Source of the DNA: Verrucomicrobiota bacterium
Lineage (GTDB): Bacteria > Verrucomicrobiota > Verrucomicrobiia > Palsa-1439
Reading direction: 5' to 3'
DNA: 36,834 nucleotides
Assembly: GCA_016871575.1 (NCBI GenBank)
Contig: VHCW01000003.1
Coordinates: forward strand, 1 to 36,834
The notes under the pieces are model-generated. The model ran no database searches. It was not told where the DNA came from and was given only the letters and a program-made list of their open reading frames with translations. Of the stretch, positions 4,544 to 15,257 are shown piece by piece. Positions within the stretch are counted from its first letter, which is position 1. Every line of letters starts with the position of its first letter. The position numbers and the translations under genes are program-made.

Positions 4544-5530
4544 TCAACGCACAATCGTGACCGCTTCGGGTTTTACTGCATCCAGCACCGTCGTGTCGAG
4601 CAGGCGCAGATAGTTCGGAAGCGGCCTCGCCGTCACGAGTTTCTGGTCGAGCATCCATTTCGCCTCTTCCTCGAACTGCGGCAACAACGATTGCTCCAGC
4701 CCCACCCGAAAATAAACCTGCCCCCACTCCGCCGACAACCGGGCCAGCGGCATCCCCACGCGCCTGGCCACGATCTGCCTCGCATCCGCGGGCGCGCGCC
4801 GCACAAACTCCTCCGCCCGCAACAGCCCGCGCACCAACCGCCGCGCCGCTCCAGGATGCTGCTGCAACCACGCCGCCGAGGCCGCAAGGTGCTGCGACCG
4901 CACGTACACGCCGGGCGCTCCCAGCACCACCACTTTCTCACCAAGCCGGTCGGCGGCCTCGGTCACATACGGTTCGCGCGTCGAAATGGCGTCCACCTCG
5001 CCATTGACCAGCGCCGGCACCAGATCCTCGATCTTCTGAAACGACAACGCCACGGCGCCGTCCACCATGCCGTTGTGCAACAAAAACAGGTGCAGGAAAA
5101 AGTGGACAGACGAAGCCCGTTGCGTCGCCACTCGTTTCCCGCGCAAGTCCGACCCCTTCTCGATGCCGGCGTCCTTGCGCGCCACGACCCAATGGAGGTT
5201 GCCCACCGACGCGACGCTGGCGAACACGCGAAAATCCTGCCGCTGAAAACTCTCCGCCACCACCGGCACCTCCGCCGTCGTCGCCACGTCCACCGCCCCC
5301 GTCAGCATTGCCGAGAACGCGCGCGCCCCGCTGGCGTAGGGGACGACACTCATCTCCAGTCCCTCGGCGGCAAAATAGTCCTTCTGGAGCGCAATGATGG
5401 AAAGCGCGGCGGGCGCTTCCAGCGCCAAGCCGAATCGGACCGGCTCCCGCTCAAGTTGTGTCTGCGGGGGACCACAACCAACGGCCACAAGCAGCACGGC
5501 CCATAACACTTTCTGTGTAGTGTCTTTCAC
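4544..5530 (-). CDS. ABC-type substrate-binding lipoprotein, NMT1/TauA-SsuA-like
   Basis: 328 aa, GTG start. The N-terminus is a lipoprotein signal with its Cys in LLVAVGC at about residue 19. The mature part has the two-lobed periplasmic binding fold of the nitrate/sulfonate/taurine/pyrimidine class: the first strand region FGLALEAPAALSIIALQKDYFAAEGLEMSVV, an Ala/Gly-rich turn, and the DLRGKRVATQ element near residue 125. Such proteins normally feed an ABC permease, but no permease or ATPase gene is adjacent; the next genes are two kinases and a response regulator. It is therefore more likely a ligand sensor or sensor co-receptor here (inference). The ligand cannot be named from sequence. 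No clear Shine-Dalgarno precedes the GTG; see the promoter entry. Confidence 0.85.
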   Translation of the reverse strand: MKDTTQKVLWAVLLVAVGCGPPQTQLEREPVRFGLALEAPAALSIIALQKDYFAAEGLEMSVVPYASGARAFSAMLTGAVDVATTAEVPVVAESFQRQDFRVFASVASVGNLHWVVARKDAGIEKGSDLRGKRVATQRASSVHFFLHLFLLHNGMVDGAVALSFQKIEDLVPALVNGEVDAISTREPYVTEAADRLGEKVVVLGAPGVYVRSQHLAASAAWLQQHPGAARRLVRGLLRAEEFVRRAPADARQIVARRVGMPLARLSAEWGQVYFRVGLEQSLLPQFEEEAKWMLDQKLVTARPLPNYLRLLDTTVLDAVKPEAVTIVR

Positions 5531-5846: not shown

Positions 5847-5929
5847 GATGCCGTTCTTCTAAACCACCGCTGCCCGTCATGCAAGCTTGCACAAGCCGCC
5901 GGGACCGGCTACAGTCGCGCCGACGTTGC

Positions 5930-6019
5930 GGAGGGGTGGCAGAGTGGTCTAATGCGCACGCCTGGAGAGCGTGTGGGGTCTAACGGCCCTCGCGAGTTCG
6001 AATCTCGCCCCCTCCGCCA
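5930..6019 (+). tRNA. tRNA-Ser(GGA)
   Basis: Acceptor GGAGGGG (5930-5936) pairs with CCCCTCC (6009-6015). The discriminator is G6016 and CCA is encoded at 6017-6019. The anticodon arm is CACGC-CTGGAGA-GCGTG with anticodon GGA. A long class-II variable arm and a T-arm GCGAG-TTCGAAT-CTCGC are present. The length and long variable arm are typical of tRNA-Ser. Confidence 0.97.
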
Positions 6020-6057
6020 CTTTTTGTGCCGTCGAATGTCAGACTGAGGAACACGCA

Positions 6058-6372
6058 ATGAGATTGCCAACAAGATGCGCCCTCGCAATCGCGGTGATAT
6101 CCATCGGCGCCGGCTGCGAAACAACTCCGCCGCCACGGGTCGTCAAACTTCCGCCCGGCTATTCCGTGCCGGCGCCAAGCCCCGACGACATCAAGACGCT
6201 GGCCAAAGCGGGCATGTCAGACGAAGTCATCCTGAGCCAGATCCGCAACACACGCGTGGTGTATCGCCTGACAACCACAGAGATTCTCGATTTGAAGGAA
6301 GCTGGCGTGAGCCAGAGAGTGATTGATTTCATGATCAACACACCGAGTTTGTATCCCCCATCACGCCCCTGA
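6058..6372 (+). CDS. Small lipoprotein with helical KAGMSDEVI-type motif
   Basis: 104 aa. The start ATG at 6058 is set by GAGGA at 6046-6050 (7 nt spacing); a longer in-frame reading from 5971 would overlap the tRNA and is wrong. The signal peptide is followed by a lipobox-like IGAGC (Cys about residue 17), then a Pro-rich linker. About residues 43-95 hold two related helix-loop units, LAKAGMSDEVILSQI and DLKEAGVSQRVIDFM. This repeated motif is common in small Verrucomicrobia/Planctomycetes lipoproteins of unknown function (from memory, not searched). It stands alone between tRNA-Ser and the convergent sugar-isomerase gene. Confidence 0.82.
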   Translation: MRLPTRCALAIAVISIGAGCETTPPPRVVKLPPGYSVPAPSPDDIKTLAKAGMSDEVILSQIRNTRVVYRLTTTEILDLKEAGVSQRVIDFMINTPSLYPPSRP

Positions 6373-9879: not shown

Positions 9880-11178
9880 CTACTTGGCGGATTCGATCCG
9901 GTAAAGGTGAGTCTTGGAAAGAGAAGGATGTGTTTTGGTACGAATGAACAGCGCGTTGTCGGACACGGCGGGCGACGCCATGCAACCGATGTCGAGAGTG
10001 TTCGTCGCGAGCAACTTGAAGGTGCGGCCCGGTTTCACGACAAAACCCTTGCCTTGTTGGTTGAAGAAATAGAGCCGGCCGTCAGCATACACCGGCGAGG
10101 ACGCAAACGTGCCGCCCAACCGCTCCGACCAGACCTCCTTGCCCGTGGTGACTTCCAGACAGGTGGCGATGCCATCGTCGCGCACCATGTAGAACAAATC
10201 GCCCACAACGATGAGCGACGCCGTCTTGGCAACGCCTTTGTCGAGTCGCCACACCTGATGGGTGTCAGTCACGTCGCCGTTGCCGTCGGGACGGATCGCG
10301 CAGAGTTCCGTCTTCCCAAAGCCGCTGATGAGCAACACAAGCCCGTGGCTGAAAAGCGGGATCGGCGCCGCCGACCATGCGTCGGGAAACTGGAACCGCC
10401 AAATTTCTTTGCCGGTGCGCGGATCGTAGGCGTAGGACGCCTTGGCGCCGGCGCTGAGCATCTGGAGCTTGCCGTTGACGGTGACGATCATCGGCGTGCT
10501 GTGCGCCTTGCGCCGGTCGCCGTCTTTCGCGAGCTTGGTGTCAATGTGTTCGTCGTTCCACGCCACCGAGCGGTTGGTTTTCCAGACGGTCTTGCCGGTC
10601 TTCTTGTCGAGCGCGACGTGGTACTGCACATCCACGCCGTCCATGCTCAGGATCAGGAGGTTCTCGAAAAGAACCGGCGACGAGGACGGGCCGCGATAAT
10701 GCCGGCAAGGGAGGTCATCCCGTTTCCAGAGCGTCTTGAACGTCTTGGTGTCCAGGCAGGCCGTGCCGTACACGCCGAAGTGAACATAAACGCGCCCCGG
10801 CTCGATGACACAGGACGGCGTGCCGTAACAATTGACGTTGACGGCATTGTAGAGTGACTCGGGGTTGTCGCAGTGGAAGATTTTTTCGTTGAAGAGGATT
10901 TTGCCGGTGTTCGCGTCGAGGCAGAGGACGAAGAAATCATTGCCTTCGAGTGTGGCCGTGGTGATCCAGACCTGACCGCCCATGATCGCCGGCGTGGACC
11001 AGCCGCGATGGGGAATCTCGGTCTTCCACTTGATGTTCTCCGTCTCGGACCAGGTGAGCGGCAGTCCCGTGGCTTTGGCGTGTCCATTGCCGGTGGGACC
11101 GCGGAACTGCGGCCAGTCGGCCTGCGCGGCCACCACCAAGAGAAGAAGTGTGCAAATCGTTTTCATGCTGTGAAACAT
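9880..11178 (-). CDS. Secreted PQQ-type beta-propeller protein
   Basis: 432 aa from ATG at 11178, chosen because GGGAG lies about 6 nt upstream; an in-frame ATG at 11166 would also give a good signal peptide. Sec signal (KTICTLLLLVVAAQA), then the mature start DWPQFRGPTGNGH. Repeated propeller blades follow, with motifs such as CLDANTGKILF, ALDKKTGKTVWK, YDPRTGKEIWRF and LEVTTGKEVWSE. These are PQQ/BamB-like repeats of a type abundant in Planctomycetes-Verrucomicrobia. Whether PQQ is bound or the propeller is purely structural is not shown by sequence. It is first in the carbohydrate operon, so a role in the periplasmic handling of sugars is plausible. Confidence 0.9.
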   Translation of the reverse strand: MFHSMKTICTLLLLVVAAQADWPQFRGPTGNGHAKATGLPLTWSETENIKWKTEIPHRGWSTPAIMGGQVWITTATLEGNDFFVLCLDANTGKILFNEKIFHCDNPESLYNAVNVNCYGTPSCVIEPGRVYVHFGVYGTACLDTKTFKTLWKRDDLPCRHYRGPSSSPVLFENLLILSMDGVDVQYHVALDKKTGKTVWKTNRSVAWNDEHIDTKLAKDGDRRKAHSTPMIVTVNGKLQMLSAGAKASYAYDPRTGKEIWRFQFPDAWSAAPIPLFSHGLVLLISGFGKTELCAIRPDGNGDVTDTHQVWRLDKGVAKTASLIVVGDLFYMVRDDGIATCLEVTTGKEVWSERLGGTFASSPVYADGRLYFFNQQGKGFVVKPGRTFKLLATNTLDIGCMASPAVSDNALFIRTKTHPSLSKTHLYRIESAK

Positions 11179-11776
11179 AGTCGCTCCCGTCGCCACTGCA
11201 AAGCGAAAATGGTCACTGCACGATCAAGCGAGTTTGTGAAGGAAACACGATGGGCGCGCGGTGTTCGCGTTGTGTCGGGCGACGGTCTGCGACACGTTGC
11301 GACGGAAAACGACAGCGGAGTTACTACGATTCTGACGACAAGGTTTCGGTGCGGTATTGAGTTTGCGATGGCGGGGGTATGAGGGCGAAGTGGGGGCGGG
11401 GGGGCTGTATTGAGTGATGGGAACCTCCGGTAACTCCACTATGGCGACAATTTGCTGTAGGCCGACTCTGCGAGTCGGCGAAATCCCCAGCAAAAACGCC
11501 GCTTCGCAGAAGCGGCCTACAATAGCCATCTCATCAAACCGAGTTACCGGAGGTAACCTGATGGCTTGCGAGAGGCTCTTTCGGAAAAAATTTCGGTCGG
11601 TCGGTGCGGTCGTGGTGATCGCGGATGGTCCCGCCGAGAAAGCGTAAAGCGGGTTGTTTCCATCCGTCGAAAACAGCGGCGCGGATTGGCTTGAATCGAA
11701 CGGGGCGCGGCGGTAGGCTGGCGGCAGTGTAGTTGCAATGAAAGTCATCATTGAGAGAGACCAGCAAAAGTAATTG
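11179..11776. other. Gene-free stretch between PQQ-propeller and FGE-domain genes
   Basis: Nearly 600 bp with no convincing gene on either strand; the longest open frame (11224-11751, minus) has biased, low-complexity composition and no family resemblance. The clear structure is the inverted repeat at 11423-11554. A G-run-rich segment (about 11375-11404) precedes it. The last ~100 bp presumably carry the FGE-domain gene's promoter, but I see no convincing boxes. Confidence 0.7.
11423..11554. repeat. REPIN-like inverted repeat with two 57-bp arms and two hairpins
   Basis: Left arm 11423-11479 and right arm 11498-11554 are exactly 57 bp each, in inverse orientation, separated by 18 bp. Each arm (right arm reverse-complemented) starts ACCTCCGGTAACTC and ends TGTAGGCCG plus a hairpin with loop CTGCG. 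The middle 19 bp differ. The left hairpin is 11461-11479 (GCCGACT/AGTCGGC), the right 11498-11516 (GCCGCTT/AAGCGGC). The GTAG tetranucleotide next to each hairpin is the sequence that RAYT (TnpA-REP) transposases recognise at REPs. No RAYT gene is in the window. Confidence 0.85.
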
Positions 11777-13213
11777 ATGCGAACTGCTATGAGCTTGGTA
11801 CGACTACTGATTATAGTGCTTTTTGTGGCAGAAGCATACGGGCAAGCGGTGCATTTGAAAGTCGCATCGGAACGGAGACGTGCTGTAGGTTTTCATGTGG
11901 CGGACGACGTTCAAGATACTCCAAGTTCAGCCTCTCCTTACCCTGTTCCTGATACATTTTTCCCCGGTAGTGTCCTCACATCGCGTCACAAACGTCGAGA
12001 GACAGTCAACATTACACTGATGAACATGCATACCAGTGCATTTGAGTATCATGTGGAGTGGGCATTTATGGTCTCCCCTGTGACCGTCGGGGATGATGAG
12101 CAGTGCTATCTTCAAAGTACGAATGTGTTTCTGAAAAGATATGAGTCCATAGGTTTTTCGGTGAGGTCGCCTGATGTTTCGTCCTACGAACACACCCTCT
12201 TGCAACAGAAATACTCAAGCGAAGACGGTTCAACGAGGACAAGTAAAAGCGCTCTTGGATTTACCGGATTATCTCTTAGCGGTTATGTTGTACGAGTAAT
12301 AGCTGGGGAGAAGGTCATAGCTATCGAAGCGTCAGACACTCCGCTCAAGCAGAAATACCGAGATTCAAAAGCGGTTTGGCCTAAGCCAATGGCAGGCGGC
12401 GCAAGTCCAGAGGATAAACGGCTGGAAGCCACTGTTGCGCCGTTGCTGTTGAATAAACAGCCGACAGCACCGGCGACCAAACCCACAGTCGCACCAACGG
12501 CGAGTCCAAGCGTGCCGTCAACTCCGTTGAAGGAAATGACGGTTGAACTTGGCGACGGCGTGAAGATGGAATTCGTCCTCATCCCCGCCGGCATGTTCAT
12601 GATGGGCGAGAAGCAGTCAACCCGCAAGGTGACGATCAGCAAGCCGTTTTACATGGGCAAGTATGAGGTCACACAAAAGCAATGGGAGAAAGTCATGGGC
12701 AATAATCCGAGCCGGTTTAAGGGCGCGAAGAATCCAGTGGAGTCCGTGAGTTGGGAAGATTGTCAGAAGTTCTTGGAGGCGTTGAAAGGAGAAGTTCCAA
12801 GCCAGACGTTCCGGCTGCCGACGGAAGCCGAGTGGGAGTATGCGTGTCGAGCTGGCTCTACGACGGACTACTGCTATGGAGATGACACTGACAAGTTGGG
12901 TGACTACGCTTGGTTCAAAGGCAACACCGGCGGCAGATCATATCCCGTTGGTCAGAGGCGACCGAATACCTGGGGCTTATACGACATGCACGGCAATGTG
13001 TACGAATGGTGTCAGGATTGGCATGGGGAGTACAGTGCCAAATCTGCCACTGATCCGACCGGTGCCGCATCCGGGGCGAACCGTGTGTTGCGTGGCGGTT
13101 CGTGGCTCTTCGGTGCCACGTCTTGCCGCTGTGCCGACCGTGGCGCCCGCGTCCCGTCGCTTCGCGGCTACCACTTCGGTTTGCGTGTGGTGATGGATGT
13201 AGGGAAGGAGTAA
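11777..13213 (+). CDS. Secreted protein with C-terminal FGE/SUMF1-type domain and unknown N-terminal domain
   Basis: 478 aa. ATG at 11777 is preferred; a TTG at 11774 and ATG at 11789 are alternatives. A signal peptide (LLIIVLFVAEAYGQ) is followed by an unrecognised domain of about 200 aa and a Pro/Thr/Ala linker (about 225-250). From about residue 255 it is a formylglycine-generating-enzyme-like domain: FVLIPAGMFMMGE, MGKYEVTQKQWEKVMG, FRLPTEAEWEYACRAG, DMHGNVYEWCQDW, RVLRGGSW. At the active site only one of the two catalytic cysteines is present (C450); the first is Phe (F445). It is therefore probably not a true sulfatase-activating enzyme. The first half has clearly lower GC than its neighbours, suggesting transfer. 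A repeat-rich, accessory-looking setting. Confidence 0.88.
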   Translation: MRTAMSLVRLLIIVLFVAEAYGQAVHLKVASERRRAVGFHVADDVQDTPSSASPYPVPDTFFPGSVLTSRHKRRETVNITLMNMHTSAFEYHVEWAFMVSPVTVGDDEQCYLQSTNVFLKRYESIGFSVRSPDVSSYEHTLLQQKYSSEDGSTRTSKSALGFTGLSLSGYVVRVIAGEKVIAIEASDTPLKQKYRDSKAVWPKPMAGGASPEDKRLEATVAPLLLNKQPTAPATKPTVAPTASPSVPSTPLKEMTVELGDGVKMEFVLIPAGMFMMGEKQSTRKVTISKPFYMGKYEVTQKQWEKVMGNNPSRFKGAKNPVESVSWEDCQKFLEALKGEVPSQTFRLPTEAEWEYACRAGSTTDYCYGDDTDKLGDYAWFKGNTGGRSYPVGQRRPNTWGLYDMHGNVYEWCQDWHGEYSAKSATDPTGAASGANRVLRGGSWLFGATSCRCADRGARVPSLRGYHFGLRVVMDVGKE

Positions 13214-13227
13214 CGCAAAGTTGCACT

Positions 13228-13269
13228 GGCGCGTTTCTGGTGACAGGGCGCGACCAACGCGAGCTTGCG
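13228..13269 (+). repeat. Direct repeat, left copy (flanks hicBA)
   Basis: 42 bp. It matches 14040-14082 at about 39 of 43 positions (three substitutions and one indel). The shared core includes CTGGTGACAGGG and AACGCGAGCTTGCG. It starts 15 bp after the FGE-domain gene stop. Confidence 0.85.
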
Positions 13270-13296
13270 CGGAGCGGATGGCGGAAGGGTGGTTGG

Positions 13297-13530
13297 TTAG
13301 CCGAAGATGTTGTGGGGGAGATCGAAGCGGCGGATGATTTGACGGAGGATGCCGGGCTTGACGTCGTGGCCTTTGTGGTAGGGGATGGGACAGGCGCGAC
13401 GCTGGCCGTGGATGTCGGGGTGCTCGATCATGCGGTGGGAGCCTTTCCCACGGTTCTCGTAGAATTGAAACCGGGCATCGTGTGCGCGCAGGATGCGGAA
13501 AACGTCGTCGGGTTTCTTGGGTTTAGGCAA
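13297..13530 (-). CDS. hicA: HicA-type mRNA interferase toxin
   Basis: 77 aa. HicA/YcfA double-stranded-RNA-binding-like fold: an N-terminal helix (PDDVFRILRAHD), strand with YENRGKGSHRMIEHP where H32 is the expected catalytic His, then CPIPYHKGHDVKPGILRQIIRRFDL. The start is TTG at 13530; the first ATG inside is past the catalytic His. It overlaps the end of hicB by 8 bp, with antitoxin first and toxin second (the classic order is hicA then hicB, but reversed pairs are known). HicA cleaves mRNA unless bound by HicB. All key features are intact, so it is likely functional. Confidence 0.92.
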   Translation of the reverse strand: MPKPKKPDDVFRILRAHDARFQFYENRGKGSHRMIEHPDIHGQRRACPIPYHKGHDVKPGILRQIIRRFDLPHNIFG

Positions 13531-13909
13531 GGGCAGGCTGGACGGGTTGGAATTTCTGGTGGCGGGCAGCTTTCAAGTCCTGCTTGCTGAAAGTGACGAT
13601 AGTGGCCTTGGCGCCGAGTTTGATGGACTTGTCGGGCTGAAGTTCGTGTTTCAGGGCGGCGATGTTGGCGGCTTCCCAGCGTTTGACATATTCAGGCGGC
13701 GCTTGGAATGGGATCAGGCTATCGTCGCCTTGTTGGGCGGCGAAGGAAAGTTGCGATTCGATCATCTGACCAAGTTCGTCGAGGGCGGCTTTTTCAGTTG
13801 CGCCGTAGCCGACAAGGTCTAATTCCAAGGCATGAGCGACAAACTCGCCGTCTTCACGGGTGATGAGGACGCGGATTTGAAAGTCGTAGTGGTGTGTGTT
13901 GATGCTCAT
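13523..13909 (-). CDS. hicB: HicB-type antitoxin
   Basis: 128 aa from ATG at 13909. Frame upstream stays open to 14134 but crosses the repeats and has unlikely composition. Residues about 8-70 are the HicB partial RNase-H-like fold (YDFQIRVLITREDGEFVAHALELDLVGYGATEKAALDELGQMIESQLSFA). The C-terminal part is longer than in minimal HicB and ends in a basic segment (SKQDLKAARHQKFQP); I see no clear HTH or ribbon-helix-helix. It neutralises HicA and usually represses the operon. No Shine-Dalgarno is visible. A duplicated palindromic word lies 40-72 bp upstream (13949-13981) and could be its operator. Confidence 0.9.
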   Translation of the reverse strand: MSINTHHYDFQIRVLITREDGEFVAHALELDLVGYGATEKAALDELGQMIESQLSFAAQQGDDSLIPFQAPPEYVKRWEAANIAALKHELQPDKSIKLGAKATIVTFSKQDLKAARHQKFQPVQPALA

Positions 13910-13948
13910 AGACAGGTGTAAGATTGCACAAGATGGCATAGGCAGGCA

Positions 13949-13981
13949 AGCACGAATGCACCGCGACAGCACGAATGCACC
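13949..13981. promoter_or_regulatory. Duplicated near-palindromic word upstream of hicBA (candidate operator)
   Basis: AGCACGAATG at 13949-13958 and again at 13968-13977, each followed by CACC, 19 bp apart (about two helical turns). The core GCACGAATGC has GCA/TGC symmetric ends. Position 40-72 bp before the hicB ATG fits an autoregulatory operator, but binding is unproven. An outer CACAAG (13927-13932) and CTTGTG (13981-13986) are also inverted around it. Confidence 0.4.
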
Positions 13982-14039
13982 TTGTGAAAATAGCGGCTGG
14001 CAGTTGGTGGGCGGTGTGGCATGATGGTGGTTGAAACTT

Positions 14040-14082
14040 GGCGTGTTCCTGGTGACAGGGGCGCGAGCAACGCGAGCTTGCG
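14040..14082 (+). repeat. Direct repeat, right copy (flanks hicBA)
   Basis: 43 bp, same orientation as 13228-13269. Together the copies bracket hicA, hicB and the candidate operator, about 770 bp apart. The right copy is about 120 bp from the 3' end of tRNA-Arg. Confidence 0.85.
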
Positions 14083-14205
14083 TCGGGGTGCGGCGGGACA
14101 ACTTCGTTGTGGCGACGTGGCCGAATGGCGACAAGCTGAAAGCAAGAGTTACGACAGGCGACTTTCAGGCGAAGATGCCACTCGCTGCAAGTGCTTGAAA
14201 ATGAA

Positions 14206-14282
<77 letters not shown>

Positions 14283-14320
14283 AACCGTTCGTTTAGTATG
14301 TCATTTTGGAGGGAACGGCA

Positions 14321-14351
14321 AGCAGTATCACCGCGACAGCAGTATCACCGC
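14321..14351 (+). repeat. Short imperfect tandem repeat before tyrA
   Basis: AGCAGTAT-CACCGCGAC-AGCAGTAT-CACCGC: a 17-bp unit repeated 1.8 times. The spacer CACCGCGAC is the same one found between the duplicated words at 13949-13981, although the repeated word differs. Confidence 0.7.
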
Positions 14352-14411
14352 AGACCACATTGCCCGCGAGGATTGCCAAACGAAATGTTTGCTGCTACAA
14401 CAACCGCCGCC

Positions 14412-15257
14412 ATGTTCCGCAAAATCACCATCATCGGCCCCGGATTGCTCGGCGGCTCCATCGGCCTCGCTGCGCGCCACCGCAAGCTGGCGCAACGCGT
14501 CGCGCTCTGGGCGCGCCGGCCCGAAGCGGCGGATGAAGCGTGGAAACTCGGCGCGGCGGATGAAGCGGGCACCGATTTGCACAAGGCCGTGGCCGATGCC
14601 GAGTTGGTCGTGCTGGCAACGCCCATCGGCGTGATGGAAACGCTGGCGCAACAGTTCAAGCCGGCCTTGGCGGAGAACTGCATCGTCACTGATGTCGGCA
14701 GCGTGAAATACCCGGTCGTGGCGGCGCTGGGCGGGTTGCTGCCGCGATTTGTCGGCTCACATCCGATGGCCGGATCCGAACAGTCCGGCATCGAGGCGGC
14801 GCGCCGTGATTTGTTTGAGAAAGCGGCCTGCATCGTGACGCCGACGGAAACAACCGACAAGGCGGCGTTGCAGACGGTGTATGATTTCTGGAAGGCCATC
14901 GGCTGCAATGTGCGAACGCTTTCGCCGGTGGAGCACGACGAGATCGTGGCGCGGATCAGCCACCTGCCGCACCTGGTAGCCGCGGCGGTGGTCAACATCG
15001 TCTGCAACAACGGCTCGCACCCGCTGGAGTTTGTCGGGCCGGGCTTCAAGGATTTCACGCGAATTGCCGGCGGTCCGCCGGAGATGTGGACGGAAATCTG
15101 CCAGCAGAACCGGCAGGAAATCGGGCGGGCGCTGGAATCGTTGATCGAGGAACTCGGCAAGATGCGGGCGGCGTTGGAGAACAACGACGGCGTCGAACTG
15201 AAGGCGATGTTGAAACGGGCGAAACATTTCCGGGACGAACTGAGGTTCCGCGTATGA
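14412..15257 (+). CDS. tyrA: Prephenate dehydrogenase (or arogenate dehydrogenase)
   Basis: 281 aa from ATG 14412. An in-frame ATG at 14385 is possible, but the 14412 start places the Rossmann motif correctly. G9-x-G11-xx-G14 (IIGPGLLGG) binds NAD(P). GSHPMAGSEQSG near residue 115 is the conserved TyrA substrate-site segment, and EHDEIVARISHLPH near residue 173 is the second conserved His region. It oxidatively decarboxylates prephenate to 4-hydroxyphenylpyruvate in tyrosine synthesis. There is no fused chorismate mutase or ACT domain, so feedback control is not evident. It overlaps cmk by ATGA (15254-15257). In many bacteria tyrA and cmk sit beside aroA; aroA is absent here. Confidence 0.94.
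   Translation: MFRKITIIGPGLLGGSIGLAARHRKLAQRVALWARRPEAADEAWKLGAADEAGTDLHKAVADAELVVLATPIGVMETLAQQFKPALAENCIVTDVGSVKYPVVAALGGLLPRFVGSHPMAGSEQSGIEAARRDLFEKAACIVTPTETTDKAALQTVYDFWKAIGCNVRTLSPVEHDEIVARISHLPHLVAAAVVNIVCNNGSHPLEFVGPGFKDFTRIAGGPPEMWTEICQQNRQEIGRALESLIEELGKMRAALENNDGVELKAMLKRAKHFRDELRFRV

Follow-up and report, generated by a model that had tools for sequence, protein, structure and literature searches.

The stretch of DNA analysed here, hereafter the window, comprises positions 1–36,834 of contig C3 (VHCW01000003.1; 101,937 bases) of assembly GCA_016871575.1, a genome of 5.19 Mb in 257 contigs that is 95% complete. It contains a toxin–antitoxin gene pair, hicBA, which together with a tandem-repeat element (element A) is enclosed by two copies of a direct repeat, R1 and R2 (Table 1). 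On the far side of R2 lie a tRNA-Arg gene and a second version of element A, termed element B, the complete order being R1-hicBA-A-R2-tRNA-Arg-B. A sequence-only reading of this locus had described direct repeats of ~42 bp, in the same orientation and close to a tRNA gene, that enclose hicA, hicB and a candidate operator; all of this is indeed found there, the candidate operator being element A. The left neighbours (an AP_endonuc_2 TIM barrel, an L-rhamnose mutarotase, an SSF symporter and a PQQ propeller) look like an ordinary sugar-catabolism set.

Table 1. Features of the hicBA locus, with positions given in the window
Feature	Position	Strand	Evidence and remarks
Repeat copy R1	13227..13269	+	BLAST, alignment; just past the FGE-sulfatase-domain gene, whose stop is at 13213
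hicA, putative toxin gene	13297..13530	-	Pfam PF07927, E 1e-10; TTG start; 77 aa
hicB, putative antitoxin gene	13523..13909	-	128 aa; upstream of hicA; HicB-like predicted fold
Element A	13945..13981	-	Tandem repeat GGTG-X-TGCTGTCGCGGTG-X-TGCTTGCC, X = CATTCG; 35 nt upstream of hicB start
Repeat copy R2	14039..14082	+	BLAST, alignment; 123 nt from tRNA-Arg 3' end
tRNA-Arg (anticodon TCT)	14206..14282	-	Next-best place in own genome 81% alike (40 of 55 candidates scored)
Element B	14317..14349	-	Framework of A with X = ATAC; 34 nt upstream of tRNA-Arg 5' end
Synteny breakpoint	14350..14372		Homology starts at 14363 (G006, G010), 14368 (G001) and 14373 (G003)

The hicBA operon and its relatives

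Judged from sequence and a predicted structure, the gene pair looks like a genuine hicBA operon. The product of hicA carries the HicA toxin domain with its conserved histidine (H32), which is invariant in the four sequences compared, and the GxGSH and IPxHK motifs are kept in three relatives, save for one F in place of S. The two genes are adjacent and coupled, the end of hicB overlapping the start of hicA by 8 nt. For the HicB sequence no family was found in Pfam, NCBIfam or PADLOC at E≤0.001. Its AlphaFold (AF2) model, built on a four-sequence alignment, has a pLDDT of 69, and HicB structures head the lists retrieved with it by both Foldseek, where the best E value is 7.8e-3 and no match attains E≤0.001, and VIA-align (Z 7.2, rmsd 4.3, 89 aligned), pointing weakly to a partial RNase-H-like HicB fold. 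Since a VIA-align Z score under 8 may reflect a common arrangement, the name HicB rests on the fold and the operon together. The model displays no separate C-terminal DNA-binding domain, residues 110–128 being modelled with low confidence. HicA may act as an RNase-type toxin that would be neutralised by HicB.

The distribution of HicB was followed in a family sample of 10 other genomes, in a class sample of 384 genomes (the window's own and 383 others) and in public collections, which may omit the window's own genome. No match was found in any of the 10 family genomes, and four of the 383 other class genomes contain one, the relatives being 35–51% identical. Among public genome contigs, 281 candidate stretches yielded HicB at 10 loci, six of which are titled as Verrucomicrobia groups; only the three best of these 10 (L108–L110) were compared in full, and they proved to be the same places as the class relatives L090–L092. 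None of 77 candidate stretches in viral contigs was confirmed, and plasmids and phages gave no match to HicB. The distribution of hicBA is thus patchy, and the operon was probably acquired.

The gene order is the same in L090, L091 and L092, the three clear relatives. In L090 and, if a GTG start is taken, in L091 hicB and hicA overlap by 8 nt, and in L092 they are separated by a 3-nt gap. Repeats bracketing hicBA were found in none of the three, nor does any of them (3/3 checked) carry an A-like repeat of at least 10 nt within 160 nt upstream of hicBA. In L093, where the match is partial (49 residues), a weak 21-nt family of 71–76% identity is present on both sides. Bracketing by repeats is thus no trait of the clear hicBA relatives.

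Two interleaved duplications

R1 and R2 lie on the same strand, 812 bp apart, and share 40 of 44 aligned columns (90.9% identity, with three mismatches and one gap); their longest identical run measures 15 nt. Local alignment of the two intergenic stretches that hold them scored 67; over 500 dinucleotide shuffles the score averaged 18.5 and never exceeded 31. The repeats are accordingly real. Beyond their edges, a weak likeness at low stringency extends for 7–9 nt leftward and ~15 nt rightward. In the whole 5.19-Mb genome R is present twice (BLAST, E≤0.001), both copies being at the hicBA locus, and the exact gapped R core was retrieved from one of the 384 class genomes, namely the window's own (two matches), and from none of the 383 others. 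A common dispersed element, which the earlier reading had named as a finding that would refute it, is therefore rejected.

Further searches were performed with parts and models of R. A 26-base R pattern with three mismatches detects only R1, because R2 carries an extra base. With an HMM derived from both copies, other matches in 1.34 Mb of the genome's own sequence appeared only at E≥0.35. The right half of R (15 nt, three mismatches) occurs seven times in the window and 4.1 times in shuffles, which is no excess; R has no Rfam match at E≤1, and its core was not found in viral contigs. Comparison of the DNA from 13190 to 14206 with 28 genomes, the own one included, gave a single row from elsewhere at E<0.001, a 35-nt match inside hicA that was taken as chance.

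Direct repeats at short range are no rarity in this genome. When 70 stretches totalling 1.34 Mb, with some overlap, were scanned for pairs of at least 35 bp and at least 85% identity within 2 kb, 30 rows were obtained; three of these were double-counted via overlapping loci, and the R pair is among the 30. Many of the 19 pairs inspected are coding; at least four others (L137, L149, L180 and L185) are palindromes that are apparently non-coding by eye, and mechanically called ORFs overlap some of these.

Palindromic repeats are located at 10999 and 11325 in L137, at 8782 and 8946 in L149, at 2310, 11546 and 12392 in L185, and at 4333 in L175, several of them forming local pairs. They have a common centre like GTGAAATA(GG/CC)TATTTCAC and arms of two kinds, GCCACATCA or GCCAAAAG. 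In L180, a near-identical palindrome is found before (5233–5268) and at the end of (5920–5955) an ArsR-like gene, named by eye, and the two copies are perhaps candidate paired operators. In L169 (12139–12213 and 13727–13801), the start of a guaA-like gene, named from the sequence MEQIIILDFGSQYTQVIAR, occurs a second time 1.6 kb upstream of the complete gene.

The duplication of A and B is interleaved with that of R and had been overlooked in the sequence-only reading. The gapped framework of A and B was found in one of the 384 class genomes, at two places in the window's own genome, and in none of the 383 others; a reversed-pattern control gave no matches. The bare 13-nt core occurs twice in the own genome, as does its reversed control, so that it is the longer framework, together with the nearness of the two sites, that counts. 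The gapped alignment of A with B is modest, with a score of 36 and a maximum of 30 in 500 shuffles. Likeness ends abruptly at the edges of A and B, and near those of R, and the order of the elements matches that of two units which differ in cargo and are alike at their ends. No sigma-70-like promoter was recognised at A or B, the region 13100–14500 containing 0 such sites.

On the + strand R can be folded into a hairpin whose loop is GTGA, albeit not significantly so, either as RNA (z -1.73 and -1.08) or as DNA (z -1.25 to -0.55). On the - strand, from which hicBA and the tRNA are transcribed, RNA folding is worse than on the + strand and likewise not significant (z -0.41 and +0.15). R contains no T run and no promoter-like site, and an intrinsic terminator is rejected, the two terminator-like sites found (1.8 expected) both lying outside R.

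The FGE-sulfatase-domain gene preceding R1 (11774–13213) resembles two true targets of diversity-generating retroelements (DGRs) of the same genome. Its 3' end is similar to a DGR variable region and differs from the template repeat (TR) TR16 at 27 of 33 A and 16 of 108 other sites, and from TR156 at 25 of 29 A and 20 of 108 other sites; so many non-A differences do not suit a current target of either TR, and the gene is without the end common to most of its paralogs. It is possibly a former or remote DGR target. The two DGRs themselves, at C16:8443–11195 (L096) and C156:4747–6602 (L098), comprise FGE-sulfatase-domain targets, Avd (NF033474), RT and TR, and their variable regions differ from the TR at 14 of 33 A and 5 of 109 other sites (C16), and at 19 of 29 A and 3 of 113 other sites (C156). 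In the excerpt of PMC3240598, the phage DGR hairpin has a 4-nt GRNA loop; the hairpins after the C16 and C156 targets have an 8-bp stem and a 3-nt GAA loop, so that the GRNA rule is not strict in this genome. C103:15779–15946 may be a remote target served by the C156 TR (19 of 23 A, 3 of 89 other sites), and a third, stronger reverse-transcriptase match is located at C5:71229–71852 (L105; PF00078, E 5.9e-41).

The tRNA-Arg and tyrA junction

Homology to four relatives starts 13–23 nt outside B. The accessory nature that the sequence-only reading ascribed to the stretch is thus upheld at its right edge, homology to the four relatives starting only from 14363–14373. In all four of these genomes (G001, G003, G006 and G010; 4/4 compared) the divergently oriented neighbour of tyrA belongs instead to one homologous gene family, assigned to GHL10 by Pfam in G001, and no GHL10-type gene was found at E≤1e-5 in the window and the own-genome sample. 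The tRNA-Arg(TCT) gene and tyrA reside on different contigs in the six of seven relatives in which both were found; in the seventh, G002, no tyrA was found. The flanks of tRNA-Arg in the seven relatives have nothing in common with the window beyond the tRNA itself. In five of the seven, as judged by eye from the DNA, tRNA-Arg is followed by a lipoprotein-like gene; the flank in G001 is cut by the contig end, and that in G006 contains a tRNA-Ser-like sequence. When the contexts of tRNA-Arg and hicBA are compared with those in the relatives, both are thus out of the relatives' context here. A plasmid search with the DNA sequence returned 205 records, the best 10 of which all match over the tRNA.

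Elsewhere in the window, a stretch beside a tRNA-Ser gene (6183–6346) is 76% identical at the DNA level to C97:1958–2121 of G001, inverted relative to tyrA. It has no Rfam match, and the ORF lying over it (5971–6372) has no Pfam match.

Origin of the locus and comparison with known systems

What the analysis shows is the repeats and the confinement of these to the locus within the searched data, the order of the elements, the operon and the synteny break; the order of events, the roles of A, B and R and the activity of HicA and HicB are inferred. We consider it moderately likely that an ordinary hicBA operon was acquired at a rearranged tRNA-Arg/tyrA junction and that R and A/B are likely leftovers of the rearrangement, the R copies going back to an old, private duplication of a short element. 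On this view the lineage would have gained the operon at a junction that had been rearranged and also holds a relocated tRNA-Arg gene next to tyrA. R and A/B would frame hicBA and tRNA-Arg alike, as R1-hicBA-A and R2-tRNA-B, both read leftwards, as if hicBA had settled within a duplicate of the elements that surround the tRNA-Arg gene. These elements would most likely be remnants, perhaps kept for regulation, rather than working recombination sites.

This account is consistent with the HicA domain, the HicB-like fold and the gene order common to three relatives, with a framework of R and A/B that is private (0/383) while hicBA is patchy (4/383) and the tRNA-Arg/tyrA context changed, and with the lack of HicB matches in plasmids, phages and viral contigs and the placement of A 35 nt, and of B 34 nt, upstream of the respective gene. 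It accommodates other observations less easily. Had a longer segment been duplicated passively, more likeness should have survived a divergence of 9% past the edges of A/B and R; the A/B score is modest (36 versus 30), and the 13-nt core is no commoner than its reversed control. Neither a sigma-70-like promoter at A/B nor A-like repeats in the relatives (3/3 without) were found, HicB is unrecognised by Pfam, NCBIfam and PADLOC, and its structural match is middling. In addition, the relatives' contigs are drafts and, the genome being in 257 contigs, the locus may be misassembled.

The sequence-only reading regarded the locus as a cassette of hicBA and its operator, inserted by recombination between R1 and R2 and losable through it. 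This reading is supported in part: the R copies bracket hicBA and A exactly, and the locus is lineage-specific, both in its junction and in the patchiness of hicBA (HicB in 0 of 10 family and 4 of 383 class genomes). Movement or loss via the repeats, however, is without support, and we regard the cassette as unlikely. The Pfam scan, which covered 33 of the window's 205 mechanically called ORFs, revealed no recombinase, integrase or transposase family among these 33, and R was found at no other site in the own genome, nor its exact core in the 383 other class genomes. According to PMC12074656, recombination requires at least 23–27 bp with RecA/RecBC and 44–90 bp with RecA/RecF; the 15-nt identical run in R falls below the former figure. 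RecA-independent slippage deletion between the copies is possible. None of the three clear hicBA relatives is bracketed, and the second copy of A, which is located outside the bracket, is left unexplained by the cassette. Because the R flanks are rearranged in the relatives examined, no empty site exists for comparison.

It is also quite unlikely that the elements are regulatory sites kept by selection, A and B serving as operators or activator sites and R as a hairpin common to the hicBA and tRNA-Arg units. The position of A and B just upstream of both units and the GTGA-loop hairpin of R would fit such a role, and elsewhere in the genome a palindrome pair flanks the ArsR-like gene; but the folding of R is not significant as RNA or DNA, R has no T run, A and B coincide with no sigma-70-like promoter, the relatives are without A-like repeats, and the HicB model has no separate DNA-binding domain.

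A mobile or accreting array of two units would consist of R, cargo and A/B, with hicBA and tRNA-Arg as the cargo and B as the outer end abutting the old chromosome. The interleaved order with its fairly sharp element edges, the near-equal distances to the genes (35 and 34 nt), the synteny break 13–23 nt past B and the displacement of tRNA-Arg relative to the relatives all suit this idea. No third unit was found in the genome or the class sample, though, and there is no recombinase in the scanned window ORFs and no attC core site. We therefore hold such an array to be distinctly improbable, and judge in the same way the notion that hicBA and tRNA-Arg(TCT) are equivalent cargo of one unit, travelling or co-regulated between a 5' A/B and a 3' R. 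To our knowledge, no such TA/tRNA cargo unit has been described.

That R1 is the hairpin following a DGR variable region, and R2 a stray copy of it, is highly improbable: the FGE gene is similar to a pair of true DGR targets (27 of 33 A versus 16 of 108 other differences to TR16) and the R1 hairpin starts within 20 nt of the stop codon, but the GTGA loop misfits the 4-nt GRNA loop in the excerpt of PMC3240598, though strictly so do the GAA loops of C16 and C156, the R1 stem is imperfect as DNA, unlike the C16 and C156 hairpins, and R2 has no variable region beside it.

As it stands, the preferred account, that of acquisition at the rearranged junction, makes the locus a bounded example of an acquired hicBA. 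The operon is of a known kind and the junction lineage-specific; any novelty could lie solely in the double framing, which is unusual. If the two-unit array were real, a tRNA gene and a TA pair would use one set of flanking elements, which would offer TA modules a possible route to settle beside a tRNA without a tRNA-specific integrase. The locus also counsels caution, in that a local repeat pair around a gene does not alone make a mobile cassette.

In a literature search, no arrangement of hicAB with direct repeats and a tRNA stood out among the matches listed. Integron attC core sites have the form RYYYAAC ... GTTRRRY. The locus resembles integron gene cassettes in that a short cargo, the size of a TA module, lies between similarly oriented imperfect-hairpin sites, but neither R copy contains an attC core on either strand and no array of further cassettes is present; an integron cassette is rejected. 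With elements integrated at tRNA genes the locus has in common its nearness to such a gene. Here, however, R2 lies 123 nt off the tRNA without overlapping it, and within 12500–15000 no stretch of the tRNA exceeding 9 nt is repeated; integration at a tRNA att site is rejected on these grounds. The scanned ORFs include no integrase.

The Salmonella wzy locus, which according to the excerpt of PMC12074656 is excised between flanking direct repeats of 113 bp, is likewise a single locus between two direct repeats; the repeats described here are 44 bp long and 91% identical, with an identical run of at most 15 nt and no observed excision. The operon itself is nearest to Class 2 of PMC10865869, characterised in the excerpt of that source by the hicBA order, a HicB without a DNA-binding domain and a HicB length of 63–103 codons. 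At 128 aa the HicB of this locus is longer than that range, and it is unrecognised by Pfam, whereas the position of hicB before hicA, the gene overlap and the lack of a recognisable DNA-binding domain are common to both; the locus is a small reversed-order module, here with a HicA of 77 aa and a HicB-like fold.
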